Shown here: positions 1,741-64,000 of the stretch, piece after piece
Layout: each line of letters starts with the position of its first letter
Numbering within the stretch: the first letter of the stretch is position 1
Origin: Flavobacterium granuli
GTDB lineage: Bacteria; Bacteroidota; Bacteroidia; Flavobacteriales; Flavobacteriaceae
Direction of reading: 5' to 3'
DNA: 64,000 nt
Assembly: GCF_900129705.1 (NCBI RefSeq)
Contig: NZ_FQWO01000016.1
Span: forward strand, 1-64,000
The notes under the pieces: generated by a model
What the model was told of the DNA's origin: nothing
Databases searched by the model: none
What the model saw: the letters and a program-made list of their open reading frames with translations, nothing else
Made by a program: the position numbers and the translations under genes

Positions 1741-1880
1741 ATTTGAGTGTTTTTTAAAATGATAAATTAATCAAAAGCTTCAAGTATAAATATGCAGTTG
1801 AATCAAATTTTCAATGAAAAATCATAAAATAAAAAATATTTTTATATGGAAAAGACTAATTCTTATAATGAATTAAATCA

Positions 1881-1911
1881 AACCACTTTAGAGTTGTTGT
1901 CTAAAGTGGTT
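1881..1911 (-). terminator. Intercistronic hairpin between DUF4397 gene and namZ
   Basis: A perfect 12-bp inverted repeat (arms 1881-1892 and 1900-1911, 7-base loop) lies 13 bases past the DUF4397 stop on the minus strand. The run that follows (TTTGATTTAATT) is only partly T-rich. It is either a weak terminator or a processing hairpin that sets namZ and murQ expression below that of the import genes. Confidence 0.6.
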
Positions 1912-1923
1912 CAAATAAGATAA

Positions 1924-2853
1924 TTAGTTATTGGTGTACCATCCAATAGTGGGTATATTTACAGTAGCACTTGGTGCGCCAGCAGATAATCCTCCGAGGA
2001 ATCCTCTACAGAAAATTGTGTAAATTCTACCAGCTCTTGGAACAAAAATACCAGTTCCTGAGTTAGCCTGATTTGCTATAAGAGAAGGAGAAGCAAGAGT
2101 AGGATTATTTGTTACTGAGCCCGGAACACGTAATTGTATCTGATATCCTCTTGCATCAGATGGGTCTTGTGCTTCAATAGCGATAAATTTCTCGTCTCCA
2201 CCTTTGAAAGTTACGTTTTTGTAGGTTTGAATCTCTTTTGTCACCGTGGTAGCCGCACCAGAAATAGAAGTAGTTTTAATGATTCCTAAATCAAAACCAG
2301 TAAAGGGAGTATTACTTATTACATTGATAAAGCGTATATATGCTTTGGTCTTGTCTAAAGCTACTGAAAAGTCGTCATTAATTTGATAAGTAGAATAGGT
2401 TACAGGGGCGATGTTTGGAGGTGATCCAATTAAGAAATTACTGTAATATTTTCCTTTTTCAGTCACCAATTTTCCAGCAACACGTTCTACCGCAGGAATT
2501 TCAGGGGCTGTAGAGGTGGCTGCAATTTTAGGAGTCACAACACTGAATGGTTGATCACCCGATTGTACCAAACCATAAAGAGTTACGGGGTAAACAGAAC
2601 CAAATGTAGTTCCAATAGGGAGACCAACAGTGACTCCAACGGAAGAAATTTTATCGGCTCCCATAAAATAGTTTACTTGAAAATTAGTTCCATTAGAACC
2701 AACAGCAGAATGAATAAATTTTACATTAGCGGTGTTTTTAGGAGCGCTTGTTGCATAAGGCGTGAAATCGTGTTCGTCTCCACATGAGGCTAACATTGCC
2801 AATACTAGGAGTGGTAAAGTCACCTTTTTTATTGTGTTAAATATATTTTTCAT
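1924..2853 (-). CDS. DUF4397-domain lipoprotein
   Basis: This 309-residue protein has a lipoprotein signal with the lipobox LASC (cysteine near residue 24). The body matches the DUF4397 pattern: repeated beta-rich segments beginning NVKFIHSAVGS, and IRFINVISNTPFTGFDLGI further on. Such proteins are surface or periplasmic lipoproteins of unknown biochemical role. They often sit directly after SusC/SusD pairs. Here the start is 26 bases downstream of the SusD stop, so it is probably an accessory surface protein of the same import complex, perhaps helping bind the ligand. No catalytic motif is visible. Confidence 0.8.
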   Translation of the reverse strand: MKNIFNTIKKVTLPLLVLAMLASCGDEHDFTPYATSAPKNTANVKFIHSAVGSNGTNFQVNYFMGADKISSVGVTVGLPIGTTFGSVYPVTLYGLVQSGDQPFSVVTPKIAATSTAPEIPAVERVAGKLVTEKGKYYSNFLIGSPPNIAPVTYSTYQINDDFSVALDKTKAYIRFINVISNTPFTGFDLGIIKTTSISGAATTVTKEIQTYKNVTFKGGDEKFIAIEAQDPSDARGYQIQLRVPGSVTNNPTLASPSLIANQANSGTGIFVPRAGRIYTIFCRGFLGGLSAGAPSATVNIPTIGWYTNN

Positions 2854-2879
2854 TTAATATGTTTTAAAGTTTTGATAAA

Positions 2880-4484: not shown

Positions 4485-4496
4485 TTTATATATGTA

Positions 4497-50301: not shown

Positions 50302-50314
50302 TTGATTTTAGAAA

Positions 50315-51211
50315 ATGATAAAAATCAAAAAGATAAGCTGTGTTTTAGTAGCAGTTTTAGTGGTATATTCTTGTGGAAGTCAAAAAGGAATTACTTCAAA
50401 AATTGAAGTGCAAGGTCATCGTGGCGATCGCGGAAATTTTCCAGAGAATTCGATTTCTGCTTTTATCAGCGCTGTAAATAAAGGTGTTGATGTTCTGGAA
50501 TTAGATGTTGTAATTTCTAAAGATCAAAAAGTTGTCGTTTCTCACGAGCCTTTTATGTCTTCGCAGTACATGTCGGATTTTGCAGGAAATCCAATTGCAA
50601 AGGATAAAGAAAAGAGTTATAATCTTTATGAAATGACTTATGACAGCATCAGTAAGTTTGACAGCGGTTCGAGAGGAAATGCTGCTTTTCCGCAGCAGCA
50701 AAACCAAAAAACGTATAAACCGCTATTGTCGGATATGATTGATAGTGTCGAGCAGTATATTTCCAGAAATAATCTAAAACCCGTTAGATACAATATCGAA
50801 ATCAAATCTGAAAAATCGGAATATGGTAAAAGTCAGCCCGAGCCGGAAGTTTTTACAGAAATACTAATGAAAATCATTAAAGAAAAAGGAATTGAGCGAA
50901 AAATCAATATTCAGTCTTTTGATCCGACGGTTTTAAATGTGATGCATAAAAAATATCCAAAAGTAAAATTGGCATATTTGGTTGGAGAAGGTGCTGTAGC
51001 TAAAAACCTTTTACTGCTTGATTTTAAACCAGAAATTTATAGTCCAAATTATAAATTACTCAACAAAGAAGCAGTAGATTCTATTCGATCATTACAAATA
51101 AAAGTTATTCCGTGGACTGTTAATGAGGAGCAGGATATCGATAATATGATTAAGCTTCAAGTGGATGGAATTATTACGGATTATCCCGAGAGAGTTTTGG
51201 AAAAACGTTAA
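50315..51211 (+). CDS. Glycerophosphodiester phosphodiesterase family lipoprotein
   Basis: GDPD enzymes release glycerol-3-phosphate from glycerophosphodiesters. The 298-residue protein has a lipoprotein signal (VVYSC, cysteine near 20). The GDPD TIM barrel has QGHRGDRGNFPENSISAF with catalytic His and Arg, LELDVVISKDQKVVVSHEP with metal ligands, YNIEIKSE, INIQSFDP and the C-terminal VDGIITDYPE. It ends the operon. Together with the phosphoesterase, this indicates a system that imports and cleaves phospholipid headgroups, teichoic-acid-like polymers or similar esters. Confidence 0.93.
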   Translation: MIKIKKISCVLVAVLVVYSCGSQKGITSKIEVQGHRGDRGNFPENSISAFISAVNKGVDVLELDVVISKDQKVVVSHEPFMSSQYMSDFAGNPIAKDKEKSYNLYEMTYDSISKFDSGSRGNAAFPQQQNQKTYKPLLSDMIDSVEQYISRNNLKPVRYNIEIKSEKSEYGKSQPEPEVFTEILMKIIKEKGIERKINIQSFDPTVLNVMHKKYPKVKLAYLVGEGAVAKNLLLLDFKPEIYSPNYKLLNKEAVDSIRSLQIKVIPWTVNEEQDIDNMIKLQVDGIITDYPERVLEKR

Positions 51212-51238
51212 AAGTTTTTCAAGTTTAGTGTTTGTTTT

Positions 51239-51268
51239 AGCCTTCAATTTATTGAAGGCTTTTTTTTT
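51239..51268 (+). terminator. Terminator of the second SusCD operon
   Basis: AGCCTTCAAT (51239-51248) and ATTGAAGGCT (51251-51260) form a tight stem followed by eight or more T. Confidence 0.9.
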
Positions 51269-51320
51269 AAGAATGGTTCTAATGAAATAACAGCGCCTTT
51301 GTAGCTTTATAGATGCAAAT

Positions 51321-51629
51321 TTAATTTGTTCTTATGTTAAGGTGTTGATATACGCGTTCTGGAATCAAGCCGTAATGAGATAATGAGGTTTCCATTGATA
51401 AATAACTTGGGCCATAAATATGATTGGCAATCAAGCCACTTTCAGGCACTCGCATATTTGCGTTTTTTCCTGGAATGTAGATCCCTCTTTTTACAGATTT
51501 GATTATGCCTTTGTCTTTCAATGCTTTGATTTTGTCATTAGGTCGCTTGTATTGACTTAGTATGCTGGTCAGCATTTGATGCGTTATTGGCTGTCCTTCA
51601 AAAGTAGATAATAATCTGCTGAAATCCAT
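51321..51629 (-). pseudogene. AbiEi-like type IV antitoxin / viral-defence regulator, truncated
   Basis: The 102-residue frame covers the N-terminal winged-helix and the start of the next domain of AbiEi-like antitoxins: SQYKRPNDKIKALKDKGIIKSVKRGIYIPG and LIANHIYGPSYLSMETSLSHYGLIPERVY (cited as regions). Full proteins of this group run to about 200 residues and continue into a C-terminal antitoxin domain. Here the frame stops just after PERVYQHL. No AbiEii-type nucleotidyltransferase toxin gene follows. The winged helix and its operator at 51663-51691 remain, so it could still bind DNA. Confidence 0.7.
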
Positions 51630-51662
51630 AATCTGTTTTGTTTTTACTTGTAAAAAAATAAG

Positions 51663-51691
51663 TATATAATCGATATTTTATCGATTATATA
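51663..51691. promoter_or_regulatory. Perfect 13-bp inverted repeat upstream of the AbiEi-like gene
   Basis: Arms TATATAATCGATA (51663-51675) and its complement (51679-51691) flank three T, 34 to 62 bases before the antitoxin start codon. AbiEi proteins are known to autorepress by binding inverted repeats in their own promoter, so this is the likely operator. The remainder of the gap to 51926 holds nothing recognisable. Confidence 0.65.
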
Positions 51692-51926
51692 TTCTTTTAA
51701 CTACATTGTAAATTCCAATGGCATTGACCACCTGATTCCAATTTGAAATGACTACTGAATTCTAGTAGGTGCTGTTCGTGAAAATAAATGATAATTTGTT
51801 GATTTTTAACAAACTGATTTGTGTTTGAGATGGATTTTTTTAATGTTTTTTATTGGTCAATTTACATTGGAATAGAGTGGTCAGTTTAATCGTTTTTTCA
51901 ATTCTAGAACACGTACACCTACGTTC

Positions 51927-52217
51927 TTATTCAAAAGGGTAGAGGCTTACCATGCTCCCTTTATAAGGATTGAATGAAGGTTCATATTTAAGATACCCCT
52001 TTTCATTTAATTCCCTCATGCATTTATGGTAGGTTGCCTTAGAGCAAATTTTACTCACCCGCATTACCTCATCCCGACTTATGCTTATAGGGTTTTGAAA
52101 GCGGTTGATATTCCAGAATTGGAATAAGGCAATATACAAGCTAATATGGGTAGGGTTGAGGCTACCATCTAGGAGGATACGGTCAAAAAATACGCTGAGA
52201 TGTCTTTGGTAATTCAT
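51927..52217 (-). CDS. Small winged-helix-like protein of Bacteroidota accessory regions
   Basis: From ATG 52217 (MNYQRHLSVFFDRI) the product has 96 residues; an ATG at 52250 is also possible. It looks helical with a wing: THISLYIALFQFWNINRF, ISISRDEVMRVSKICSKATY, ECMRELNEKGYLKYEP-like MRELNEKGYLKYEPSFNPYK. The S-K-A-T-Y-H-K helix followed by KGYLKYEP is a typical winged HTH. I know similar small proteins from mobile regions and replication or excision modules in Bacteroidota, but the function is unknown. The next 290 bases to 52509 show no feature. Confidence 0.65.
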   Translation of the reverse strand: MNYQRHLSVFFDRILLDGSLNPTHISLYIALFQFWNINRFQNPISISRDEVMRVSKICSKATYHKCMRELNEKGYLKYEPSFNPYKGSMVSLYPFE

Positions 52218-52509
52218 TTTGTTAGTGAATAAGTTGAGGTGAATGCGCAATAGTGTTTTTTGTCAGCAAAGGCAAAGTTCGATTTTTACCATTTTTTGAA
52301 TGTCCGGCTTATCCCTCAATATTTCTCTGAATGGAAATAAAAGAGAGTTGGACAATTCAAGAAGCTAGTTTTTGAGGAGGATTATAATTGCCACAACTCT
52401 TGTTTTATGTTGTTATGGAGCAAAATTGTAATTATTTCAGGGCTTTATAGCACAAGTAGTTCACAAGTTGTGAGAGAAAAAAAGAAAGATCTGTTGGGAC
52501 GGGATGCGG

Positions 52510-54141
52510 TTATTGACTTCTTAATCTACTAATGAAGTACGTGGGTGAAAGGCCGGTTCTGTTATTGAATGCCCTGGTGAAGTTTTGGGTAGAACCGAAG
52601 CCGCATTCATCGCTTAAAGCCTTGTTGGTATATTTACGGTATTTGTTTTCGTTTTTGAGTAATGCTATAATATGATCAATCTTTAAATTATTGATATAGT
52701 CAACGGTTCTCTTGTTGCGATAGTGCAAAATAATTTTTGAGGCGTATTTCATATTGGTGTTCAGTAAAATAGCCAATTTAGCTAAAGTCATGTCTTTTTC
52801 AAGGTATTTTTTAGTATACTCAAATTTTTCAATATTTTTTAGAATAGTGGCAATGAGTTCGGGATTGATATCCAGTTCATTTTCCCTAGCGCTATGGTAT
52901 GAAACTAACGAAGGCACTTTTTCGGGTATGCGATGCATCAACTCTTGAAATAATCTTTTATTTTTAAAATGCCTGCGCCCCAGTAGTCCTATGATTAGTG
53001 TCATTAGACTTACTACCCCTATCCAGTACTGCTCGCTGTTCTTTTGATTTTGAAGGAGTTTTTTGGTGTCGTATTCTTTGAGTATTTTTCCCGAAAGCTG
53101 TTTAAAATCTTTATGCAGCTGCTGATCTACTTTTATAAGGCTGCTGCTGTAGTATAGTTCTAACTCTTTGTTATTTTGTTGCTGATAATATTCAATTAAT
53201 AGTTCGTAGGCTTCCCGTAAATCCGGTCGGATGTACTTTTGTTTCTGAAAAGCTTCATCTATCTTTTTAAGATAGGCTAAGGCCTTTTGATGTGATTTTT
53301 TAGCCCAGTAGCTTTTTCCGATGTAAAAATAGGCGGTCGTTTCGTTGGCAAAATCGTGATTCTTCTTCATTTCAGCTACTACCGCTGTCAGTTTCTCTAT
53401 GGCATCGGGGTAATTGTGTTTAAAGTACTGGTTTATCCCTTCGGAATGGAGAAAATAGGCCTGCATTTCAGTGTTTTTAACACGAAGACCTTCGTTGAGG
53501 CCTTGTTGGTTAACTTGACTGCAAGCTTCATAATTGCCCAAGCGGTTGTAACATAGTCCTAAAGAGTGCAGTGAATTCAGATAGGCGCGTTCATTATTTT
53601 TCCTGAAGTATTTGACGCATTCCTGAAATAATAGGCTTGCATCATCATAGAATTCAAGGGTATATTTGATTTGGGCAATCGTGTATTTTATTTTATGAAT
53701 AAGGTAGTGGTTAGTGGTCTTTGAAATGTATTCGTCGGCAATCATGTAGTTTTCGAGGGCTTCCAACTTCTCTTTGGCATCATAGTGCTGAATTCCTTTT
53801 GTCATATAGGCCGATCCTATTAGTTCCAGATCGGCTGTGCGTTTGGCCGCTGTCAGCATGCTATCGGCATAGCTGAGCTGTAGTTTTTTATTAGTAGTAT
53901 AAATTAAGGCTTTATACGCCAGTGCCTTTTGAGCGAAGTTTTTCTCCCTTTTTGCCTTCGTTAACCAGGAGTAGGCATAAAGCCGCTCTTTGATACTGTC
54001 TTTTTCCTCATATTGGATGTTTTTGCTAAAATAGTTGTAGTCTCTAGTCGAAAGACTGTCCGGAATGATGAAATTATGGTGTTGTGCATGGGCATAATGA
54101 TACAGGCATAGCCATAGTATAACTAAGTATTTCTTTGTCAT
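52510..54141 (-). CDS. TPR-containing AraC-type transcriptional regulator (membrane anchored)
   Basis: The 543-residue protein has a signal peptide (LVILWLCLYHYAHA) and a periplasmic TPR array (about 60-340, e.g. LNSLHSLGLCYNRLGNYEAC). One membrane helix follows (about 372-392, WIGVVSLMTLIIGLLG), then a cytoplasmic AraC-type DNA-binding domain at the C-terminus (about 440-543, LAILLNTNMKYASKIIL, ALSDECGFGSTQNFTRAFNNRTGLSPTYF). It resembles a one-component trans-envelope regulator. It is divergent from the small lipoprotein gene. Two matching palindrome arrays, one in this divergent gap and one before the RteC gene, are candidate binding sites. Confidence 0.9.
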   Translation of the reverse strand: MTKKYLVILWLCLYHYAHAQHHNFIIPDSLSTRDYNYFSKNIQYEEKDSIKERLYAYSWLTKAKREKNFAQKALAYKALIYTTNKKLQLSYADSMLTAAKRTADLELIGSAYMTKGIQHYDAKEKLEALENYMIADEYISKTTNHYLIHKIKYTIAQIKYTLEFYDDASLLFQECVKYFRKNNERAYLNSLHSLGLCYNRLGNYEACSQVNQQGLNEGLRVKNTEMQAYFLHSEGINQYFKHNYPDAIEKLTAVVAEMKKNHDFANETTAYFYIGKSYWAKKSHQKALAYLKKIDEAFQKQKYIRPDLREAYELLIEYYQQQNNKELELYYSSSLIKVDQQLHKDFKQLSGKILKEYDTKKLLQNQKNSEQYWIGVVSLMTLIIGLLGRRHFKNKRLFQELMHRIPEKVPSLVSYHSARENELDINPELIATILKNIEKFEYTKKYLEKDMTLAKLAILLNTNMKYASKIILHYRNKRTVDYINNLKIDHIIALLKNENKYRKYTNKALSDECGFGSTQNFTRAFNNRTGLSPTYFISRLRSQ

Positions 54142-54314
54142 GTTTCTAAGAAATTTTGGGGATACTAATTAGAAAATGTATTAAAAACGCTATTCTTTGT
54201 AAAATAAATGTAGGAAAATAATTTGAAAGAAAGAAGTAATCCTCTCGTAAAAAAAAACAGTGTCTTTTTGTGTGGAACTGATTGATTTTGTATTTGTTGG
54301 TGTTGAATTTAGTG

Positions 54315-54358
54315 TATGTAATTCGCGAATTACATATAGGCGATTCGGGAATTGAATA
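54315..54358. promoter_or_regulatory. Tandem palindromic site between the AraC-type regulator and the lipoprotein gene
   Basis: The first unit (54315-54336) is a perfect 22-bp palindrome with core AATTCGCGAATT. The second (54337-54358) is an imperfect copy with core GATTCGGGAATT, centred 22 bp away. The same arrangement is found at 55822-55864. The rest of this 373-base gap (54142-54514) shows no convincing gene. Confidence 0.7.
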
Positions 54359-54514
54359 CTACTTGGTTTGCCGGAGTACAAGTGTCCCAGTAGCTTTGTG
54401 CTGAATTCAAACGGTTTTGTTATGAGTAAAACCAACAGCCACATTGTTCAGATTATCCCGGGAGAAATGAACTGATGAAAAAAGTAATCAGTAACATTTA
54501 AAACAGTAACAAAG

Positions 54515-54820
54515 ATGAAAAAAGTTTATTCAGGTTTCAGTATTTTTATTTGCCTTAGTTTTTTGGCGACCGTTAGTTCCTGTACTGCCGATGCTCCTTT
54601 TGAATCGAATGAGGGTTCAGTTATAACAACCGCCAAAAAAGCACTACTTCATTATAATGCTGAAGAAGCAGAGCAAATAACGTTAAACAGCGAGGATGCT
54701 GATGGGGCAGCGAACAGCCTTTCTAGTTATTCTACTCAAACAGAAGGAGAACAAATAATCGATCCAGACTGGAAGAAGCTTATCACCGGTTTTATTGATA
54801 GCGAGAGGGTTACCGACTAG
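54515..54820 (+). CDS. Small lipoprotein of unknown function
   Basis: The 101-residue protein has a clear lipoprotein signal (FLATVSSC, cysteine near residue 23). A short acidic, serine-rich mature part follows, with no Cys, no barrel pattern and no known domain; it ends DPDWKKLITGFIDSERV. A -7 box is not obvious. The tandem palindrome about 160 bases upstream suggests control by the divergent TPR/AraC regulator. I do not recognise the family. Confidence 0.75.
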   Translation: MKKVYSGFSIFICLSFLATVSSCTADAPFESNEGSVITTAKKALLHYNAEEAEQITLNSEDADGAANSLSSYSTQTEGEQIIDPDWKKLITGFIDSERVTD

Positions 54821-54853
54821 GGGTCTAAGATAGAAAGTTTATACGTTTAATTA

Positions 54854-54884
54854 AAAAAGACTATTCATTTTGAGTAGTCTTTTT
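54854..54884. terminator. Bidirectional terminator between lipoprotein and RteC genes
   Basis: AAAAAGACTA (54854-54863) and TAGTCTTTTT (54875-54884) form a stem between converging genes. Its last base is the first base of the RteC stop codon complement. Confidence 0.85.
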
Positions 54885-55735
54885 CAATTTTCATCCGCAT
54901 CGTCCATACGGATGATGAGTTTGTTTTTGAGTATATTCAGGAATTTTGTTCTGTCGGATTTTCGGTTTCTGATTTCGAGAAAAACCCGGTTGAATTGCCC
55001 TAAATCAGTATGAAATACGGTCTCAAAAAAGCCAATGACATCTTTAAGACTTAGGGCTCCGTTATTAAAAAGACCCTGCGTATGGAGGGCATATATCAAT
55101 TCTATCAGATCCACTTTGGATCCTGTCCATTTCAGGCCTGTAGCAGGCGGAGCAGGAGTGGAGGTCTTAAGACTCTTTTTTTCCAAGGATGCGATTTGCT
55201 CTTCCAGAAAGGTTTTTAGCGCGTCGTTGGCCAGTATTCTGGCCACCTTATAGTCATGAGAGGTCGAGAAGCGGTGGTCTATATGGAAGTATAAGCTGTC
55301 ATGCATTAGTTTAAGGTCGTATTTGGCCCTGATAAAGTATATATTATCCAGGCAGTTGTTAGCCGTGCGGTAGTAGCGGTAGAAGTCCTTATTTTGTTTG
55401 AAGTAGCTTTTTAATTTAAGGAGTTCTGCTTTATAATATTTATCTATTGTTTTTAGGGAACCCAATGGCTTGTTGGTTTCCAAAGCGTAGATTTCGTTAT
55501 AATAAATGAGTTTGGCCGCAAACTTTGGTTTGATGTTCCGGAAGAATTCGATTTCTTCTTTTTTGTTTAGTCGTTTGTATTTGATGAAAAAGGTTTTCAG
55601 TTGCTCCAGATAAAGAATGTTGCACTTTATCGCCTGCTCAGCATAGTCTATTGGATTTTGAGTTTGCAGATGAATTTGTTTTAACTGCTGCTCCAGTTCA
55701 GACATCAGGGATTCAGAGAATAATTTCATAGCCAT
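54884..55735 (-). CDS. RteC-domain protein
   Basis: RteC was defined as the activator of excision genes in the Bacteroides conjugative transposon CTnDOT. Flavobacteriia carry many chromosomal homologues of unknown role. The 283-residue protein has the family's helical N-terminus and the conserved C-terminal part: LKWTGSKVDLIELIYALHTQ, FNNGALSLKDVIGFFETVF, and FLEIRNRKSDRTKFLNILK. It has no signal peptide. Upstream lies the second tandem-palindrome site, so it may belong to the regulon of the TPR/AraC protein. No transfer genes are present in the window. Confidence 0.88.
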   Translation of the reverse strand: MAMKLFSESLMSELEQQLKQIHLQTQNPIDYAEQAIKCNILYLEQLKTFFIKYKRLNKKEEIEFFRNIKPKFAAKLIYYNEIYALETNKPLGSLKTIDKYYKAELLKLKSYFKQNKDFYRYYRTANNCLDNIYFIRAKYDLKLMHDSLYFHIDHRFSTSHDYKVARILANDALKTFLEEQIASLEKKSLKTSTPAPPATGLKWTGSKVDLIELIYALHTQGLFNNGALSLKDVIGFFETVFHTDLGQFNRVFLEIRNRKSDRTKFLNILKNKLIIRMDDADEN

Positions 55736-55821
55736 GGTTTAGGATTTACAAATTGACTTATTTGGGAATTGAATTGGTTGGTAAATCTATCTGATGGTTT
55801 TCAGGATTGCAAATAGTATGC

Positions 55822-55864
55822 TGTGCAATTCCGGAATTGCATAGTTCAATTCCGGAATTGCATA
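55822..55864. promoter_or_regulatory. Second tandem palindromic site, upstream of the RteC gene
   Basis: Two units with core AATTCCGGAATTGCATA are centred 21 bp apart. The first contains a perfect 18-bp palindrome (55824-55841). Sequence and spacing match the site at 54315-54358. It lies about 90 to 130 bases before the RteC start. Confidence 0.7.
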
Positions 55865-55974
55865 CCTTGTTTTTTGTACTAATGCGGTGAATAAGCTTTA
55901 TGTTTACCGCATAATTGCGGTGATCATTCAGTAGTTTTGCTGCTGGTAATTCCTTAGATTATTGAGCATAAAAA

Positions 55975-55994
55975 AAGAGGCGCAATGGCCTCTT
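55975..55994 (-). terminator. Minus-strand terminator for the TlpA/peptide region
   Basis: AAGAGGC and GCCTCTT form a 7-bp stem, followed on the minus strand by seven T. It lies about 360 bases past the last gene of the TlpA cluster. Confidence 0.7.
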
Positions 55995-56110
55995 GAAATT
56001 CTTCTTACTCATTTATCGTAAAACCCATAAGGGATGGATGTAGAGCGGCGATCTCAAAGGTGAATGCAATTCGACGTACATTAGCTTTAAGACAAGTGCC
56101 AGTATAATTC

Positions 56111-56219
56111 GAGGTCAGGAGACCTCGAATAGCGGGGGTTTCTTATTGCCAGTCAAGAAATTAAATCACACGTAATCAGCTTTCAGATAACTGGCAATAG
56201 TTCGAGGTCAGGAGACCTC
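56111..56219. repeat. Intergenic element with two copies of a GAGGTC near-palindrome
   Basis: Two identical copies of GAGGTCAGGAGACCTC (56111-56126 and 56204-56219), each followed by GAATAGC, enclose an inner inverted repeat TATTGCCAGT (56144-56153) / ACTGGCAATA (56190-56199). A third inverted copy of the 16-mer is at 39681-39696. The arrangement suggests a small non-coding mobile or REP-like element. The remainder of the 618-base gap (55736-56353) has the operator, the terminator and a GC-rich patch near 56265-56285, and no gene. Confidence 0.65.
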
Positions 56220-56353
56220 GAATAGCAGGATTATTTACTTAATTGATTTTGTTTGTGGGCACAAGCGAGACGCTAGCGCCAGCCTGGGAATTAGAAATAA
56301 ATTCAGGAACCGTTTTAATGAATAAATGGTTAGCGATTCAAATTGAAGTTAAA

Positions 56354-57304
56354 TTAAAATTCAATATCCATCCAGTAATGACATTCTTCTAATGTCCAAA
56401 TATTACTTTTCTGGAGAGGCAAATATAAATAATTATGAAAGTAATATGATTTACGAATGTAATCTTTTTGATATCTATAGGCTCTTAATGCTGGGACTGC
56501 CGCAATCGCTCCTATTTTTGAACTAATAAATTCATCATTCTTATACTTGTATTCTTCTTTTTTTAATAAAATAAAAACAACAAAAACACCGTCATTAGGC
56601 ATCTTTAAATTATAGCTGGAAACATCTACTTTAGTCCAAATTTTGTTATCTTTTTTGGCTATCAAGATGTCTTTTTCCAGTAGTGGTTTATCAGGGTAAC
56701 CTACACTATCTTTGGTATACAAATTAAATTTGAAGGGCAAATATTTTAAATTTTTTACCCCGCCAAAATCGCTGACGCCAAATAGCACTTTTTTTATTTG
56801 AGAATCCCCATTGACTTTTGGAATAAAAACGGCGGCTTTGCCTTCCCAACTAAAATTTATTGGGACACTGTTTAATTTTTCGAAAGAAGACAGTTCTAGC
56901 TTTGCGTTACTTTTTTTCGAAATAACTATTTCGTTTAAATCTTCTACATTATCATTTAAAAAATAGCTTTGCAATAAAAATTTAGTTACAATTTTTTTAT
57001 ACCCTAAAGAAGAGATTTCAATACTTTTAATTTCATTATTTCTGTATTTAAATGGAGGTATTTTAAAAATGCCTTGTTTATCAGAAATAACAAATTCATA
57101 TGAATCATTGATAAATATGAGTTTCGCACTTGCACCTTCAATAGGTAAATTTGAACTTTTTGAATAAACAGTTATTCGCGAAATTTGATTTATTTTAGAT
57201 TGTAATTCTTGGGAAAAAGAATTTTGTGCAAAAACAAACAGAATCAAATACAAATTCTTAAGGAAGAAATAACTATTTCTATTTCTATTTCTAAATTTTA
57301 TCAT
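56354..57304 (-). CDS. Exported protein with carboxypeptidase-like regulatory domain
   Basis: The 316-residue protein has a signal peptide (LYLILFVFAQNSFSQ). A CarboxypepD_reg-like beta domain (about 42-130) follows with ITVYSKSSNLPIEGASAKL, SDKQGIFKIPPF and SLGYKKIVTK. A longer C-terminal region (about 140-316) has no family I recognise and reads as beta-rich (FVVFILLKKEEYKYKNDEF). There is no TonB-type barrel. It is the last gene of the TlpA/peptide cluster, 70 bases after TlpA1, and may be a surface or periplasmic accessory protein of that system. Confidence 0.72.
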   Translation of the reverse strand: MIKFRNRNRNSYFFLKNLYLILFVFAQNSFSQELQSKINQISRITVYSKSSNLPIEGASAKLIFINDSYEFVISDKQGIFKIPPFKYRNNEIKSIEISSLGYKKIVTKFLLQSYFLNDNVEDLNEIVISKKSNAKLELSSFEKLNSVPINFSWEGKAAVFIPKVNGDSQIKKVLFGVSDFGGVKNLKYLPFKFNLYTKDSVGYPDKPLLEKDILIAKKDNKIWTKVDVSSYNLKMPNDGVFVVFILLKKEEYKYKNDEFISSKIGAIAAVPALRAYRYQKDYIRKSYYFHNYLYLPLQKSNIWTLEECHYWMDIEF

Positions 57305-57374
57305 ACTCTACATGGTATTTAAATAGAGGTTTTGGATATGCAAATAAAAACTACATAGTGATTATAAATTAGCA

Positions 57375-58814
57375 CTATCTTAATGAGTTAACCTGATTAA
57401 TTATGTTGTTAAATTGCAAATTATCTATAGGAGAAGGAGCGTTACTTAGAAACATTTTATTTGTACGGTCTAAAATGGCATATCGTGGGATGGTACTTAT
57501 GTTTAAAAAGCTTCCTAAATTAGAATATGTGGTTACATCAATCAGATATTGGTTTTTATCCATTCCTGATTTTTCTAATTCCGCTACTTTCTTTTTCCAC
57601 TTTTCAGGATCTTTGTCAATTGAAAAATAGAGAAATTCCACCTTGTTTTCCTGAATTAATTTATCTCTATACTTACTGCTCTTTTTTATTTCTTCAATAC
57701 AAGGCGAACACCAGCTAGCCCAAAAGTCAATTACTTTAATTTTATCGCCTTGCTGTTTTAAAACCTCACCCAAGGTTATACTATTCCCTTTTATATCCAT
57801 TAGTTTTGAATTTAAAACCTCTTCCGGCAATTGTGAATTAAACTTAATTAATCTGTCTCTTATTTGTACAAGAACTTCATTATATTTTTTTTCCTTTATT
57901 TGAGGTAAATAATTATTAATTGTCTTTTGTAAAAGATTTATATTTTCAGATTTCAAATGATTATCATATTCAAATAATGTTTTTGTAATAGCATACTCTC
58001 TAATATCCCCAGATAAATTTTTATCAATCAAATTCAACTGGTAATTCAGCTTTTCTTTTGAATATGCTTCTGACTTATCTTTTATTTTAGAAGCAAAATG
58101 CAGGTATTTCATTAAGGCCAGATGAAAAGATCCATTATCCTGCTGATCATTTCGATTAAACAGTTTAAGGTCTATTCCATTCAAGTACTTTGCATCATTA
58201 ATTGTGGCCTCTTCGGGAATACAAGACAATTGTGATTTTATATATTGAAATTTCAATACCATTCTCATCTTTCGAGAGAACATATCGGAAACTTTTTCGT
58301 TTTTAATATACTTTTCTAAAAAGGACATTTTTTTTTTGTAATTCTGTTCCAAACTTTGCTTATACTTCTCAACGCCTTCTTTTTCAGAGTAGCTTAATTT
58401 AGGTAAATGTAATTCGTCAAGTTTAGTAAAAAAATTATAGTGTGCAGCGTTAGGACCTTCAAAAACAAGAATATTCTTATCATTTAATTTATACGTGATG
58501 CTATCTCCAGGTGTAATATATACTAATCTCGGGGCAGTCATTGGCTTTAGCCCATAGAAACGAAATATTTTGGGGGCTGATAAACCAAATACAAAGTCTA
58601 AGTTTTCATTCTCATTTTTAGATTTCGTTAAAGAGGATTCTTTAAAATCATCGTTTTGATCTTCAGCCAGAATTACCCATTTCAATATTGTATCACTTTT
58701 TTCAATGTTTAAGTGAACGGTTTTAGGAGGTTCGTGTTTAATTTTGGTTCTCTGAAATCCAAAACCAATTAAAGCTATTGATAAAAGAATAATAATACTT
58801 AATATGTTTTTCAT
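57375..58814 (-). CDS. TlpA-like thiol-disulfide oxidoreductase (1)
   Basis: The exported 479-residue protein has an N-terminal hydrophobic signal (ILSIIILLSIALIGFGF), a long helical middle domain of unknown fold (about 100-330), and a C-terminal thioredoxin-like domain. The active site is C369-S-P-C372 in FWASWCSPC and the cis-Pro loop is in STIPRYAILD. Such proteins reduce or exchange disulfides in the periplasm. A Cys-rich leader peptide gene lies directly upstream, 88 bases away, so disulfide handling of that peptide is a plausible job. It is one of four non-identical TlpA proteins in the cluster. Confidence 0.9.
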   Translation of the reverse strand: MKNILSIIILLSIALIGFGFQRTKIKHEPPKTVHLNIEKSDTILKWVILAEDQNDDFKESSLTKSKNENENLDFVFGLSAPKIFRFYGLKPMTAPRLVYITPGDSITYKLNDKNILVFEGPNAAHYNFFTKLDELHLPKLSYSEKEGVEKYKQSLEQNYKKKMSFLEKYIKNEKVSDMFSRKMRMVLKFQYIKSQLSCIPEEATINDAKYLNGIDLKLFNRNDQQDNGSFHLALMKYLHFASKIKDKSEAYSKEKLNYQLNLIDKNLSGDIREYAITKTLFEYDNHLKSENINLLQKTINNYLPQIKEKKYNEVLVQIRDRLIKFNSQLPEEVLNSKLMDIKGNSITLGEVLKQQGDKIKVIDFWASWCSPCIEEIKKSSKYRDKLIQENKVEFLYFSIDKDPEKWKKKVAELEKSGMDKNQYLIDVTTYSNLGSFLNISTIPRYAILDRTNKMFLSNAPSPIDNLQFNNIINQVNSLR

Positions 58815-58902
58815 AATGCTATTTCTTACAGTTCAGACGAATATAGAACAAAATCTTAAGAAAAACTACCTTCTTTTTGAGACGGCTAATATTCTTTATT
58901 TA

Positions 58903-59055
58903 TTATTTAGGAGGATCTAAAGGACTTGAATAGTCGCATTTACAGGTATCTGCTCCGTCATTATCTGTACAAGCTAGAGTTTGATCACTACAACCAGAAA
59001 CAATAACTAGAGTATCGTCATTACATGTAGTACCTCCAGTCATAACATATCTCAT
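58903..59055 (-). CDS. Cys-rich double-glycine leader peptide B (leader partly broken)
   Basis: A 50-residue frame from ATG 59055 reads MRYVMTGG and then a core with five Cys (C11, C22, C29, C38, C40) and many Asp. It matches peptide A in the MRYVM-x-G-G/S part of its leader. The nucleotides further upstream still spell the rest of a leader (SLSNVISKLTR), but in another frame: relative to peptide A, five bases are missing between ACAAGA and TATGTTATG. The gene therefore has lost its full leader and either uses the internal ATG or is a recent pseudogene. It precedes TlpA1 in the same direction. Confidence 0.6.
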   Translation of the reverse strand: MRYVMTGGTTCNDDTLVIVSGCSDQTLACTDNDGADTCKCDYSSPLDPPK

Positions 59056-59212
59056 TTCTTGTAAGCTTGCTAATCACATTAGAAAGACTATTATTGATAA
59101 CAAAAGGGGGGGAATCTGGATGTGATTGTATCTGAAATAAAAACTCCTCGTTATCAACTATTATATCTTATTTTTTCAAATATTGAAAAAGGCAATTGAA
59201 ATTTTCGGTTAT
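59056..59212 (-). pseudogene. Decayed C39-like N-terminal fragment running into peptide B leader
   Basis: On the minus strand the frame reads TENFNCLFQYLKK, then TAA (59168-59170), then EEFLFQIQSHPD, and then passes straight into the leader remnant SLSNVISKL. It is a copy of the fragment at 61086-61217, with the start ATG changed to ATA, an internal stop, and its end fused to the peptide gene. The HPDY-type stretch resembles the N-terminal C39-like segment of Bacteroidota C39 or C39/VKOR fusion proteins. The gap from here to 59422 has no other feature. Confidence 0.5.
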
Positions 59213-59422
59213 AAATTATTTGTAAAATGAAAAAATAAAGACTTGTTTAGTTAGTTTAATATAGCAAACAGAAGTCTACATTTTTCCCGTTATTAAAAAT
59301 GTATTTGTTGTGTTTTTATACTGTTGGTTTATTTTTTGAACTGTAACTATTTGTATAAAAAATAAATAGTTTGGTTTGAGATTTGTTTATTCTTTTAGGT
59401 ACTTGGAGGTAGATATTGTGGA

Positions 59423-60610
59423 TTAGTTGTCAAATATTTCAGTAATCATGTTTTCGATTGCTTCGATGTTTTCTGCACTACTACCTATCCATCTGCCGAT
59501 GATATTGCCATCTTTATCGATTAAGATTTTTGTTGGAATTGCTGTTACAACATAGGTATCTTCAATTGTGCTTTTGTTTTCTTTGATTGAAAAATGTTTC
59601 CATTTTTCAATATTTTCTTTTTGTATTGTAGCTCTCCATAAATCTAGTTTTTCATCCTTCGTAACACTTATAATTTCAAAGCCTTTGTCTTTATATTTAG
59701 AGTACATTTCTTTTAGAAAAGGAAAATCTTCTCTGCAAGGACCACACCAACTTGCCCAAAAATCAAGAAGCACATATTTGTTGTTTCTAAATGAACTAAG
59801 TTGTAAAAAGTCAGCATTTACATCACTCCCTTTAAAATCACTAGCTAGGCTTCCAATTCTACTATTTTTAAAATAATTTAATTTTTCAGCCAATTGTTTT
59901 CCACCGTAAGATTTTTTCACTTCTGACCCTAATTTATTGTATAAATTTTCAATTGTCTCATATGGAATTTGATTATTCTCTTCTTCCAATATATAATCTA
60001 ACAAGTCAGGTGCTACAAATGAATTTGGATTTTTTTTTATAAATTCAAAATCCAATTGCTTATTTTTTTTTATACTTTGATCAACCAATTGATCCAACTG
60101 ATGATCAAGCGAATCTAAACTCTCTTGAAATTTAATTTTTAAAGATTTATCATTTGTTTCAATCATTTTAGCAGAATAAAGTCTACTCAATTCTCTGATA
60201 GAATCATTTTTTTTGCGATTTTTTTTCTTTTCCGTTGTATTTTGTAATACATTAAACTCATCGTTCGTTTTAGAACCATTTATAACTATAGTACTCAAAT
60301 CATCAAAATCGAGTTTAGCATTCATTATACACGGTTCCAAATAAAATACTTTTGAATTTAAATTTGTCATATAAAACCTAGCGTCAGTACAAATAATCGC
60401 TTTAACAGGAAAATCAATTTCTCCTTTAAATACAAATTTATTATTATGAATCTGTGAAGATTTGGTAATGCTCTTGCCATTGACGTTATATGTCAAATAA
60501 ATATTTTTTGAAACAGTATTTTTTGAGCAGACACCATTTAGCACAAAGTTGTGCTGCGCTACCAATTTAAATGAAAGAAATAAAAAGAAAATTGAAAGTT
60601 TTAACTTCAT
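59423..60610 (-). CDS. TlpA-like thiol-disulfide oxidoreductase (2), DUF4369-like N-terminus
   Basis: From ATG 60610 (MKLKLSIFFLFLSFKLVAQ) the protein has 395 residues with a signal peptide. The N-terminal beta domain (about 20-115, NFVLNGVCSKNTVSKNIYL) resembles DUF4369, which often precedes TlpA domains in Bacteroidota. A helical linker follows. The C-terminal redoxin domain has C289-G-P-C292 in FWASWCGPCRED and the cis-Pro in VTAIPTKILID, close to classical TlpA/ResA. It lies 90 bases after the peptide A gene in the same direction. Confidence 0.92.
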   Translation of the reverse strand: MKLKLSIFFLFLSFKLVAQHNFVLNGVCSKNTVSKNIYLTYNVNGKSITKSSQIHNNKFVFKGEIDFPVKAIICTDARFYMTNLNSKVFYLEPCIMNAKLDFDDLSTIVINGSKTNDEFNVLQNTTEKKKNRKKNDSIRELSRLYSAKMIETNDKSLKIKFQESLDSLDHQLDQLVDQSIKKNKQLDFEFIKKNPNSFVAPDLLDYILEEENNQIPYETIENLYNKLGSEVKKSYGGKQLAEKLNYFKNSRIGSLASDFKGSDVNADFLQLSSFRNNKYVLLDFWASWCGPCREDFPFLKEMYSKYKDKGFEIISVTKDEKLDLWRATIQKENIEKWKHFSIKENKSTIEDTYVVTAIPTKILIDKDGNIIGRWIGSSAENIEAIENMITEIFDN

Positions 60611-60700
60611 ATATACTAAAGATTTAATAATAAACAATAAACTTGATTCAATAAGATTTCTTGTTTATAAGACTAATTTATAGAATAAGAATACTAAAAA

Positions 60701-60898
60701 TTATTTACCGCAATCACCTTTACCACTACCATCCATTCTACCAGTGTACATATTACATGTTGATCCACAATCATATGCACTATAACAGGTGCCACATTTT
60801 TTTGCACTATCTCCACTACCAGCCATAACATAACGCATTTTGTTTCTTGTCAATTTGCCAATCAAATTAGAAAGACTCAGTTTTTTAATTTGTTTCAT
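60701..60898 (-). CDS. Cys-rich double-glycine-type leader peptide A (RiPP/bacteriocin-like precursor)
   Basis: The 65-residue precursor has a leader KKLSLSNLIGKLTRNKMRYV (4-24 region) ending in Met-Ala-Gly (25-27). This is the amphipathic pattern with a small-residue cleavage site known from Bacteroidota GG-leader peptides. The core (about 28-65) is Gly/Ser-rich with five Cys: C35, C38, C44, C48 and C63. It has no hydrophobic helix. Peptide B shares the leader but not the core. Neighbouring TlpA proteins suggest that the Cys form disulfides or are kept reduced for another modification. No modification enzyme is visible inside the window. Confidence 0.75.
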   Translation of the reverse strand: MKQIKKLSLSNLIGKLTRNKMRYVMAGSGDSAKKCGTCYSAYDCGSTCNMYTGRMDGSGKGDCGK

Positions 60899-61011
60899 AA
60901 TTTTTTAAAATTTAAATTTAATATTCATTTTTAAAATTACTCCACAATCACTTTAATCCATCTACCACGTGCACTTGGTTTCTTAATATACGAATGTAAG
61001 ATAAATTTTAT

Positions 61012-61068
61012 CAAAAATAAAGAGTAAGCAGAATAATCCTCATGCGATTTTATGCGAAGTTTATGCGA
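61012..61068 (-). promoter_or_regulatory. Promoter region of peptide A with three phased ATGCGA repeats
   Basis: On the minus strand TATTTTTG (61012-61019) fits the -7 consensus, about 115 bases before the peptide A start. No proper -33 box is present. Instead, three TCGCAT words (plus-strand ATGCGA at 61042-61047, 61052-61057 and 61063-61068) repeat every 10-11 bp, one per helical turn, exactly where an activator would contact polymerase. The gap 60899-61085 holds nothing else. Confidence 0.5.
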
Positions 61069-61085
61069 ATTCATCTAAAAAAACA

Positions 61086-61217
61086 TTAAGACATGGCTGT
61101 TGCTAATATAGAAGCATAATCTGGATGCGATTTAATCTGAAACAAGAATTCAGTTTTATCAACATCTATAGCTTCTTTTTTCAAATATTGAAAAAGATAA
61201 TTGAAATTTTCTGTCAT
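61086..61217 (-). pseudogene. C39-like N-terminal fragment (43 aa)
   Basis: A short frame from ATG 61217, 9 bases after the TlpA3 stop, reads MTENFNYLFQYLKK, then TEFLFQIKSHPDYASILA, and ends at TAA 61086-61088. The LFQ-x-x-SHPDYxSxL pattern matches, from memory, the first 40 residues of C39-like proteins in Bacteroidota, including C39/VKOR fusions that make disulfides. The remaining domain is missing. It could be a stub left by recombination or a short expressed peptide. A decayed copy lies at 59056-59212. Confidence 0.5.
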
Positions 61218-61226
61218 CTTTATTGC

Positions 61227-62675
61227 TTATTTAATGGCTGTTATTATTTGATCATACAATTTTTGTCCTTGGGAAGGTCTTTTAGCGTCCTCTAAAATTA
61301 GTTCACCTCTGTCATTAAAAAGTAAATATCTAGGAATCATTATGTCATTTTTAATATTTAGGAGCATCATTAACTCTTTTTTTAATTTCGTCGTTGTAAA
61401 ATAATGATTCCCATATAATTTATTTTCAACAATAAAATCACTCCATTTACCCACGGCTTTGGCATTGTCAATAGTTAAATACAATAGTTCAATATTTTGC
61501 GATTTTAAAAATTCGGTTAACTTATCTGAATATTTAAATTCGTCTTTGCAAGGTGAGCACCAAGTGGCCCATATATCTACAAATACCGCTTTCGACTTAA
61601 ATGTAGATTTTAAAAGATCAGTTATAGTAGGGAATTCTTCATTAGATATTAATTTTAATTTTTTTTGATCACCGTTAAATGTAGTAAAAGAGCCCGGGAC
61701 TAAGGTAGTTCTCTTAGCCGTTTCCGATTGTTTACGCAGTACTTTTATATAAATTCCATTTGGAAAAATTCTTTTATAACGATTATACAAGCTGAAATCA
61801 AAATCATTTTTTGTTATTTGATAGTAGATCAAAAATTCCTGTAATTCTTTCGGGCAAAAATTATAGTTTTTTAATTCGGCATCCCATAACTTATAATCTT
61901 CTTCTTTACCTACTAAAATATTTTGACTAATAAATTTACATTTATTGATAATATTATGATACTGATTATTCGTTTTTATACTACTGTATTTTTCGTCAAA
62001 AACATTATACATGCTGTCTAATTTTTGGATGGTTCTTTTTGTTTCTTCTTGGGATATTTTTGCACTTTCGTCACCAGATAGAAATCCATCCAGATATAAA
62101 TAGGACATCATGACAATCTCTGTTTCCTGATAAAGCTTAACAAATTCAAAAAAATCTTTTGAAATTTTGTTGTTTGTTAATAGCCCTTTTAATTCCTCAA
62201 TATTTCTGTTTTTCAACCCTTCTATTTTCTCGATAATTTCCGATGAAGACTGGCCATCGATAAAAATGTAGGCTAGTTCCCTGTTTAATTTAAGAAAATA
62301 AGGCGAATTATTTAAAAACTCCAATCCTTCTGCGTTCGAACCAACAAAACTCGTTTCTATTTTATCATTGTTTTTTTTGAAAAAAACATCAATAACATCA
62401 CCATTTTTACAGGGGAGTACTACAGCATACGGCATCTCATTAGTGCGCCATGTTACCAATCGTCCAATATTTTTTTGTGAGAAAGAGATATGGGCAACGT
62501 TGTTTATTATTACAGTTTCTTCTTTAAAATTAACAAAATGAGAAGGGTTTCCATCAAAAGATTTACTGTAATAAAGTTTTGTAGAATCTTTAATCCCTTC
62601 GAAATGAAGGCTAATGGACACATTCTGTGAATACGATAAAGTACACAGAAAAAATAATAAGACGATTTTTTTCAT
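61227..62675 (-). CDS. TlpA-like thiol-disulfide oxidoreductase (3)
   Basis: The exported 482-residue protein has a signal peptide (MKKIVLLFFLCTLSYSQ). Its N-terminal beta domain begins VSISLHFEGIKDSTKLYYSK, a helical middle follows (about 120-340), and the C-terminal redoxin domain has C373-S-P-C376 in IWATWCSPCKDE with MIPRYLLFNDRGELI as cis-Pro region. It is built like TlpA1 but only distantly similar. The gap before it (62676-62815) contains nested hairpins: GGTTCC (62722-62727) with GGAACC (62759-62764), and inside them GATAG/CTATC. Confidence 0.9.
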   Translation of the reverse strand: MKKIVLLFFLCTLSYSQNVSISLHFEGIKDSTKLYYSKSFDGNPSHFVNFKEETVIINNVAHISFSQKNIGRLVTWRTNEMPYAVVLPCKNGDVIDVFFKKNNDKIETSFVGSNAEGLEFLNNSPYFLKLNRELAYIFIDGQSSSEIIEKIEGLKNRNIEELKGLLTNNKISKDFFEFVKLYQETEIVMMSYLYLDGFLSGDESAKISQEETKRTIQKLDSMYNVFDEKYSSIKTNNQYHNIINKCKFISQNILVGKEEDYKLWDAELKNYNFCPKELQEFLIYYQITKNDFDFSLYNRYKRIFPNGIYIKVLRKQSETAKRTTLVPGSFTTFNGDQKKLKLISNEEFPTITDLLKSTFKSKAVFVDIWATWCSPCKDEFKYSDKLTEFLKSQNIELLYLTIDNAKAVGKWSDFIVENKLYGNHYFTTTKLKKELMMLLNIKNDIMIPRYLLFNDRGELILEDAKRPSQGQKLYDQIITAIK

Positions 62676-62815
62676 TTAAATTTAATATAAATTATGACTT
62701 TTTGATACCGTATTGTAACTTGGTTCCACAGGATAGGAATCTATCAGTATTCTATTTGGGAACCTTTAATATATTAATGGAATCTATTAAAGTATTTACT
62801 CATGATCTTTTATTG

Positions 62816-62926
62816 CTATCTTGATTTGCCTATTTTTTTCTTGTTTTCGAGATAGAGGATAAAACTATCCTGAATTGGTTTCTTATTTAAGACGAAAAGA
62901 AATGTGGATGCGATTGCAAATATCAT
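62816..62926 (-). CDS. Small hydrophobic-basic ORF coupled to TlpA4
   Basis: A 36-codon frame starts at an ATG that overlaps the TlpA4 stop (ATGA at 62923-62926). It reads MIFAIASTFLFVLNKKPIQD, then a basic tail ending KKKIGKSR. The first 13 residues are hydrophobic, so a short membrane peptide is possible. The 4-base overlap is the usual sign of translational coupling. It may also be the stub of a longer membrane protein. I recognise no family. Confidence 0.4.
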   Translation of the reverse strand: MIFAIASTFLFVLNKKPIQDSFILYLENKKKIGKSR

Positions 62927-64000
62927 TGTGTAGAAACGTATTCATAATAGGGTATATTAGCTTTAGATTTTTCTAAGGTCAACCCATAAAGTTCTAAATC
63001 TTTTATAGTGTTTTCTATCGAATCGTTTCTCAAAATAAAATCGTAATTACCCAGTAGTCCTGTTTCATCCTTAATTACAATATTATAAAATCTACTCACA
63101 GTATTTAACATTCGTCCAATTTTAATGTTAGCAATCATGAAATGAGTTTTATTGTACCCGTCTTCGCCACCTTTTTCGTTAAATATTTCTTGCAGCTTAT
63201 TTTTATTAATTATTTTTAAAACATAAATTGACTCTTCTTTGTATGTTAAATTTTCTTCTAACGACAACGAATTTAAGAGTAAGTTTTTAATTTTATTTCG
63301 TTCTTCCTTTTCATTCTTAAATAAACTGTTTTTATAAAAGACACTATACAATTTGTTTTTTTGATCGTCGGGAATAACAATATTATTTTCAAAAGCATCT
63401 GTTAAATTGGAAAAAATTGAGATTAGTTTTTGATTCCAATTTTGATAATTCCCTTCATTATTAAAATCAAAAAGGTATGCATCTCCTTGATTTTTATTTC
63501 CTTTAAAGAGGGAAAACGAATAAATCGTTTCATCAATTGTAGTTGTTTTATAGCCTAAATCTATTGCGTTTAATTCTTCTATTTTAGTAGGATTTCTACT
63601 TGTTGGCGATGGCGGTATATCCGAATATGAATTTTGACTTGTGGAAATTTCTTTATCATTCAGAAAGTTATTCAGAATCACATCGTTTAAAGTTTCTGGA
63701 TGTCCAATCCATTTCAGAATTCCTTTATCGTCAATAAGAATAGTGGTTGGAAAGGCTTTAATGCCAAAGTTTTTAATAGTTTGTCCGGTCTGATCACTAA
63801 CAACTGCTGATTTAAAAGGAATGCGTTTTAATGTCCGCAAAACTTTATCTGTTTTTTCATCGGTAATTGAGATCAAAACAAAATCTTTTTTGGATTTATA
63901 TTTCTCTTGCAATTTATTCAAATTAGGCACTTGATCCAAACAGGGACCACACCAGGTTGCCCAAAACTCCAATAAAACAAATTTGTTTTTTAAATTGGTG
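62923..64000 (-). CDS. TlpA-like oxidoreductase (4) fused to a TIGR03435-like domain, 5' end outside window
   Basis: The frame is open to the right edge (NLKNKFVLLEFWATWCGPC), so the N-terminus is missing. The redoxin domain comes first here: WATWCGPCLDQVPNL, then KAFPTTILIDDKGIL with the cis-Pro. A Ser/Pro-rich linker follows (SYSDIPPSPTSRNPT). The C-terminal region ends DETGLLGNYDFILRND and ITLELYG-like LELYGLTLEKS. That DxTGLxGxYDF pattern is the hallmark of the TIGR03435 family, which is known fused to TlpA in other phyla. It appears to be the first gene of the cluster inside the window, and more genes of the system may lie to the right. Confidence 0.85.
   Translation of the reverse strand, partial: TNLKNKFVLLEFWATWCGPCLDQVPNLNKLQEKYKSKKDFVLISITDEKTDKVLRTLKRIPFKSAVVSDQTGQTIKNFGIKAFPTTILIDDKGILKWIGHPETLNDVILNNFLNDKEISTSQNSYSDIPPSPTSRNPTKIEELNAIDLGYKTTTIDETIYSFSLFKGNKNQGDAYLFDFNNEGNYQNWNQKLISIFSNLTDAFENNIVIPDDQKNKLYSVFYKNSLFKNEKEERNKIKNLLLNSLSLEENLTYKEESIYVLKIINKNKLQEIFNEKGGEDGYNKTHFMIANIKIGRMLNTVSRFYNIVIKDETGLLGNYDFILRNDSIENTIKDLELYGLTLEKSKANIPYYEYVSTQ

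Follow-up and report, generated by a model that had tools for sequence, protein, structure and literature searches.

A partly decayed array of cysteine-rich peptide and TlpA-like oxidoreductase genes in Flavobacterium granuli and its likely relation to a family of exported disulfide-rich peptides

The stretch studied here, the first 64,000 nucleotides of Flavobacterium granuli contig NZ_FQWO01000016.1 (assembly GCF_900129705.1; hereafter the window), ends in an array of genes for TlpA-like oxidoreductases and small cysteine-rich peptides. The array occupies the minus strand from contig position 64131 down to 56354 and reads, in the order of transcription, TlpA 1, TlpA 2, a C39-like piece, the peptide gene P2, TlpA 3, a second C39-like piece with the remains of the peptide gene P1, TlpA 4 and a gene for a 316-amino-acid protein. 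The original prediction for this DNA had named four TlpA-like genes on one strand, and these minus-strand open reading frames (ORFs) are real, TlpA 1 extending beyond the window end. They are TlpA 1 (62923–64000 in the window, continuing to contig position 64131; 402 amino acids), TlpA 2 (61227–62675; 482), TlpA 3 (59423–60637; 404 as the listed ORF) and TlpA 4 (57375–58814; 479), each matching at least one thioredoxin or redoxin Pfam model above cut-off. TlpA 3 combines DUF4369 with a thioredoxin domain, and its homology begins at the ATG at 60610, nine codons into the listed ORF. The succession of fragment, peptide gene and TlpA gene occurs twice, as claimed, the P1 copy being a pseudogene. 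We consider it likely that these genes are what is left of a tandem array of peptide plus thiol-oxidoreductase modules, now partly decayed and belonging to a Flavobacteriaceae family of exported disulfide-rich peptides.

P2 (60701–60898) encodes an intact 65-amino-acid precursor. Its 27-residue leader is common to its relatives and, by alignment with them, ends in Ala-Gly at residue 27; it is followed by a core with five cysteines, and the gene is followed directly by TlpA 3. P1 (58903–59098) is joined to the C39-like piece upstream. The SLSN and KLTR of its leader are read in the frame that runs on from that piece, MRYVM and the core in another; because the leader is split over two frames, one of them fused to the fragment, P1 is a pseudogene. 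The leader remnant, SLSNVISKLTRN, is thus out of frame with the core, and the listed in-frame ORF (58903–59055) begins inside the P1 leader. Of the two short cysteine-rich peptide genes with a common leader that had been proposed, P2 therefore stands and P1 survives as a pseudogene only. A six-frame leader search of the array at E 0.01 recovered P2 and the P1 leader piece alone, the other piece of P1 scoring E 0.46. For relatives of P1, the best match apart from P1 itself had E 0.23. P2 had no match on plasmids.

The C39-like pieces are N-terminal relics of a protein of about 520 residues with C39-like, VKOR and DsbA-like domains, here called CV. Residues 1–47 of the F. restrictum CV align to 61217–61077 (tblastn, E 5e-15) and residues 1–35 to 59212–59108 (E 4e-10). 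Both places are matched by five of the six CV proteins compared; the sixth (L024, 28% identical) does not show this. The resemblance is above chance, since a CV profile run over the whole genome at E 0.01 picks these two places and no other. Relic 1 (61077–61217, residues 1–47) starts 9 bp past the TlpA 2 stop codon, and a stop closes its frame after residue 43. Relic 2 (59099–59212, about residues 1–38) has lost its ATG and contains an internal stop. Given the 9 bp spacing and the fact that CV follows TlpA in intact loci, relic 1 belongs to the upstream TlpA module and not to P2; both pieces go with the TlpA gene that they follow and not with the peptide after them. The earlier claim of a C39-like fragment before each peptide was thus right about position and wrong about identity. 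The whole-genome profile search found no intact CV in F. granuli, and a VKOR domain likewise had no match in the genome.

Two other accounts of these pieces were weighed. That they are functional stand-alone leader-binding proteins is highly implausible: the one at 61086–61217 is an open 43-amino-acid frame with an ATG, but it holds only residues 1–43 of a fold of about 123 residues, and the other has no start and an internal stop. This candidate was dropped on grounds of length and the missing start. It is also very unlikely that the locus is intact and its frame breaks are sequencing or assembly errors. The assembly is a 34-contig draft, which gives that idea some room, but the lesions are several and separate (two losses of more than 470 CV residues each, an absent start codon, internal stops and the fusion of CV to the P1 leader), no CV remainder lies elsewhere in a genome rated 99.99% complete, and the same kind of relic occurs in another genome, G091.

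In line with the original prediction, other Flavobacterium genomes have homologous leaders beside TlpA genes, and these operons also encode a C39 exporter, HlyD and a VKOR protein. Searching 199 Flavobacterium genomes with P2 gave matches in 10 at E 0.01 or better, F. granuli itself included. In the surroundings of the other nine, CV is present in six (L018–L021, L024 and L025) and decayed in one (L017, where a stretch of it matches at E 7e-5), and two belong to another cluster, with a 173-amino-acid thiol oxidoreductase and a C39 exporter (L022 and L023). TlpA follows the peptide gene in five of the nine (L017–L020 and L025). A CV match at E 1e-10 is present in 61 of the 199 genomes, the F. 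granuli relic counted.

Across Flavobacteriaceae and other Bacteroidota, a wider scan identified 57 CV loci, whose small ORFs were searched with a leader profile built from ten peptides. With near defined as from 6 kb before to 6.5 kb after CV (728 kb in total), 57 leader hits fell near CV on the same strand and one near it on the opposite strand; the other 355 kb held two. Judged by a simple pattern, AG ends 28 of the 60 leader hits and GG 32; exactly six cysteines are present in 35 of the 60 peptides. Near CV, the 57 loci hold a peptide in 34 cases, TlpA in 19, both in 18 and TlpA directly after the peptide in 16. The C39 exporter (PCAT) is near in 32, HlyD in 28, the DUF6625 and DUF6734 proteins in 21 and 10, and an XRE-type regulator in nine. 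Peptide, TlpA, CV, PCAT and HlyD all share one strand at 10 loci, and six of these (L027, L029, L032, L042, L049 and L077) show exactly the order typical of intact relatives: peptide(s), TlpA, CV, DUF6625 or DUF6734, PCAT, HlyD. A radical-SAM or ATP-grasp type of ribosomally synthesized and post-translationally modified peptide (RiPP) was rejected for these six, where the gaps between the listed genes (at most 275 bp) are too short for such enzymes; neighbours elsewhere were not scanned for these families. At one F. daejeonense locus (L034:1127–9842), five spaced leader-peptide genes precede CV. CV-like genes also occur in plasmids recorded for Aureibacter, Spirosoma and Parabacteroides (L097, L098 and L099), the Spirosoma copy adjoining genes annotated as glycosyltransferases, exporter and HlyD.

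Each TlpA of the window has its best match, among the TlpAs compared, in one that adjoins a peptide gene, and the four matches are different proteins. TlpA 1 is closest (48% identity, full length) to a TlpA of F. tagetis with five peptide genes on one side and CV on the other, TlpA 2 to one of F. shii between peptides and CV (32%, full length) and TlpA 4 to the L047 TlpA beside a peptide gene (32%). TlpA 3, the partner of P2, is 71% and 69% identical to the partner TlpAs of F. restrictum and G091. The pair of peptide and TlpA 3 recurs in both, as part of an intact operon in F. restrictum and with a decayed CV stretch in G091. Against two orthologues, TlpA 3 shows a ratio of non-synonymous to synonymous substitution rates (dN/dS) of 0.25–0.26, with about 0.26 for the window branch by the three-point formula, values that pool the time before and after CV loss. 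P2 and TlpA 3 are the only apparently constrained pair left in the genome.

The divergence of peptide cores was compared with that of their TlpAs, taking TlpAs of more than 250 amino acids directly after a peptide and dropping L040 as near-identical to L039. Over 19 pairs, which take in the close trio of the window, L032 and L017, core and TlpA distances correlate with r 0.735, a value reached in 0 of 5000 permutations. In a stricter run of 16 pairs with CV, made without the window, L017 and L019, r was 0.37 (12/5000), and holding CV distance constant left it at 0.378 (18/5000). Two of the correlation rows are from Epilithonimonas. TlpA and CV distances did not correlate across the 16 pairs (r -0.02, 2662/5000), and core and CV distances gave r 0.16 (553/5000). 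These values speak for joint movement of peptide and TlpA. The pair that a docking idea predicts, leader and CV, gave r 0.22 (250/5000), which lends little weight to docking of the leader on CV. The correlation is consistent with, but no proof of, the proposal that each peptide has an oxidoreductase of its own.

Several points weigh against placing the array in such a family. P2 carries an odd number of core cysteines, five against seven in its nearest relatives, and its dN/dS against two orthologues is 0.47–0.54. The TlpAs compared were drawn from the peptide and CV loci themselves, so that the best matches show type and not exclusivity. The peptide–TlpA correlation rests on 16 to 19 pairs and short cores, and leader and TlpA distances also correlate, weakly (r 0.26, 122/5000; 16 pairs). 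At 23 of the 57 CV loci this leader model finds no peptide, and CV may therefore also serve other substrates or leaders; the combination of peptide and TlpA is not near CV at 39 loci, some of them on contigs that end early. The loci are not independent, with L039 and L040 near-identical and a Chryseobacterium group among them, and no fewer than four of them (L028, L031, L032 and L075) come from genomes whose peptides went into the leader model. With near-duplicates, contig-end cuts and model-source genomes, the locus figures are counts and not independent events.

These figures also bear on another idea, in which the window TlpAs would be ordinary reductases of the periplasm, of a kind that is often expanded in Flavobacteria, and would lie near peptides by accident. 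TlpA-like proteins are common in the phylum, and 38 of the 57 CV loci have no TlpA nearby, besides the 23 with no peptide match. On the other side stand the TlpA directly after the peptide at 16 of the 57 loci, the four different peptide-adjoining best matches of the window TlpAs (within a set drawn from such loci) and a core divergence that follows TlpA more than CV. We regard an accidental neighbourhood as improbable and retain the reading of a partly decayed array of peptide and oxidoreductase modules.

An inverted repeat, ACCAAGTGCACGTGGT, lies on the minus strand 66 bp upstream of P2 (60964–60979) and is a putative shared cis element. When at most three mismatches are allowed, 12 copies lie no further than 300 bp ahead of a peptide gene, spread over 11 loci, and two more are found elsewhere in the 1.27 Mb; L018 and L032 among these loci are from one genome, and L039 and L040 are near-identical. 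In 373 kb of shuffled sequence the pattern turned up 2 times, so that some scattered hits are to be expected but clustering upstream of peptides is not. The F. granuli genome has one exact copy, that before P2, and one further place with two mismatches; a reversed-pattern control there gave one to two hits. At L036 the two arms of the repeat carry changes that match each other (ATCA and TGAT). Our guess is that the repeat could be an operator, possibly for the XRE regulator of some loci.

The window contig has no C39 exporter match. The sole C39 match of the genome is a 723-amino-acid ABC transporter on another contig, C30, so that the window shows CV relics with the exporter elsewhere, and not an intact CV with a linked exporter. 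Ahead of this transporter, the C30 cluster (L004, about 1400–5392) encodes a 172-amino-acid thiol oxidoreductase, a 210-amino-acid protein with four membrane-like segments by a simple hydropathy count, and two small frames with 15-residue leaders ending in GG, unlike the P2 leader. The C30 cluster is a separate, bacteroidetocin-like system, and P2 may or may not be among its substrates. DUF6625 had no match in the F. granuli genome; no control genome matched either, and other glycosyltransferase families were not searched.

With CV and any linked exporter lost, the P2/TlpA 3 pair is probably either non-functional or dependent on the unlinked C30 exporter. A more specific proposal, that P2 and TlpA 3 form a working minimal system in which the C30 exporter processes and exports the peptide in trans and TlpA or oxygen performs the oxidation, seems rather unlikely to us. 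P2 does keep its leader, start, core cysteines and upstream inverted repeat, TlpA 3 has a dN/dS of 0.25–0.26, one intact C39 exporter is present in the genome, and G091 too keeps peptide and TlpA with two C39 matches and no CV match. Against this, the C30 exporter is accompanied by its own frames with leaders of another kind, the genome has no CV or DUF6625 match, and the cysteine number of P2 is odd. Decay of a formerly larger system remains our preferred reading. The original claim of secreted disulfide-rich peptides, each with its own TlpA, is supported for the family, in which leaders beside TlpA, an exporter and the divergence correlation were found; it fails for the window, where P1 is a pseudogene, CV is lost and the contig lacks a C39 exporter.

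The domains of CV were assigned from an AlphaFold model built on 34 sequences (mean predicted local distance difference test score, pLDDT, 83.5; predicted template-modelling score, pTM, 0.54), the fold assignment covering residues 1–123, 154–297 and 355–521. Residues 1–123 adopt a C39 fold (PCAT1 8vp5, Z 13.9, 2.8 Å over 123 residues), 154–297 a VKOR fold (6wv8, Z 14.7, 2.5 Å over 132 residues) and 355–521 a DsbA-like fold (6mhh, Z 15.5, 2.8 Å over 156 residues). In view of the pTM, it is uncertain how the domains are placed relative to one another. None of the 54 CV frames has the catalytic motif D/E-C-G/A at its N-terminus, even with upstream stop-free codons included; two of these frames (L063 and L066) are truncated by the start of their contigs. 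Some other cysteine precedes the HPDYP motif in five of the 54. Among PCATs, the D/E-C-G/A motif is present in 30 of 35. The DUF6625 model (pLDDT 91.5) has a GT-A glycosyltransferase fold (best 4ayl, Z 12.3, 3.6 Å over 188 residues), and a D-x-D motif is invariant in 21 sequences; the predicted fold alone is no proof of glycosyltransferase activity.

These folds suggest a possible division of labour in intact operons. The C39-like domain of CV, without the catalytic-cysteine motif, would hold the leader, and PCAT would cut after GG or AG and export the core. Disulfide formation would fall to the VKOR and DsbA domains of CV and the reduction or isomerisation of wrong bonds to the dedicated TlpA, and the GT-A-fold protein may add sugars. 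We infer each catalytic step, the docking of the leader and a bacteriocin-like role of the family in competition. More tentatively, with somewhat less than even confidence, we suggest that the intact relatives form a separate ribosomal-peptide class, in which CV docks the leader and installs three disulfides at export, a matched TlpA proofreads, the GT-A protein glycosylates in many operons, and any exchange involves peptide and TlpA jointly but not the oxidase.

The array is flanked by genes of other kinds. The 316-amino-acid protein at its end (56354–57304, minus strand) has a weak carboxypeptidase-regulatory-like match (PF13715, E 0.003), below cut-off. Upstream of TlpA 1, a 185-amino-acid MORN-repeat protein is encoded at contig position 64297–64854, near the contig end, which falls past this gene at 65122. 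Directly downstream of the array, a palindromic element, TTCGAGGTCAGGAGACCTCGAA, is present in two copies (window about 56109–56226). An RteC-family protein (PF09357, E 3e-80) is encoded at 54884–55735 on the minus strand, about 600 bp off the array; RteC is a regulator of conjugative-transposon excision in Bacteroides. An Rfam scan of 50000–64000 gave no structured RNA at gathering score, and a tRNA search of the window found none.

To our knowledge, disulfide formation in disulfide-rich antimicrobial or signal peptides of Bacteroidota is a largely open question. The intact operons offer a testable arrangement, in which a leader-binding type of fold without a protease motif is joined to a disulfide oxidase and accompanied by a matched reductase, and 60 peptide sequences, not all independent, are available for testing it. 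The window copy provides a natural case in which the oxidase was lost and peptide and TlpA were kept.

Among known systems, the bacteroidetocins (class IIf) are similar in being small cysteine-containing peptides of Bacteroidetes whose leader is removed by a C39 exporter and whose operon includes a thiol oxidoreductase, which is needed for full activity (PMC6671954). Their leaders have 15–16 residues and end in GG (PMC6671954), whereas that of P2 has 27 and ends in AG. The portions of that paper drawn on here describe a four-gene set of transmembrane protein (five membrane segments), peptide, thiol oxidoreductase and C39 exporter, and name no VKOR fusion, HlyD or glycosyltransferase-like gene. 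This set is not found at P2, whose contig has no C39 match. The C30 cluster fits the four-gene plan, although we count four membrane segments against the five stated (PMC6671954). The glycocins thermoglycocin and orniglycocin, from Thermoanaerobacterium and Ornithinibacillus, carry three disulfides and, much like the family here with its candidate glycosyltransferase, cluster a cysteine-rich precursor with a glycosyltransferase, thioredoxin-like proteins and a C39 exporter (PMC12457901). No VKOR fusion or HlyD is named for them in the portions of that account used here. The predicted glycosyltransferase-fold protein of the present family is DUF6625, and the window has neither DUF6625 nor DUF6734 beside P2.

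Similar leader words are found in the Bacteroidetes families NF047798 (leader_Chryseo, "bacteriocin-like protein") and TIGR04149 (GG leader, radical-SAM-modified RiPP) of NCBIfam. P2 matched neither at E 1. Among seven relatives, NF047798 was matched by four and TIGR04149 by one, in no case reaching the curated cut-off. In Synechococcus, VKOR is joined to a thioredoxin-fold domain. The VKOR domain of CV resembles that protein (PDB 4nv2; Z 13.3 over 135 residues), and CV differs from such VKOR–thioredoxin fusions in its extra N-terminal C39 fold without the catalytic-cysteine motif and in its DsbA-like C-terminal domain. Among the matches listed in a search of open-licence full-text literature, no account of this gene set was recognised by title or abstract start. 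The family resembles known leader-cleaved, disulfide-rich exported peptides, combined with an apparently undescribed arrangement of peptide, TlpA and CV.

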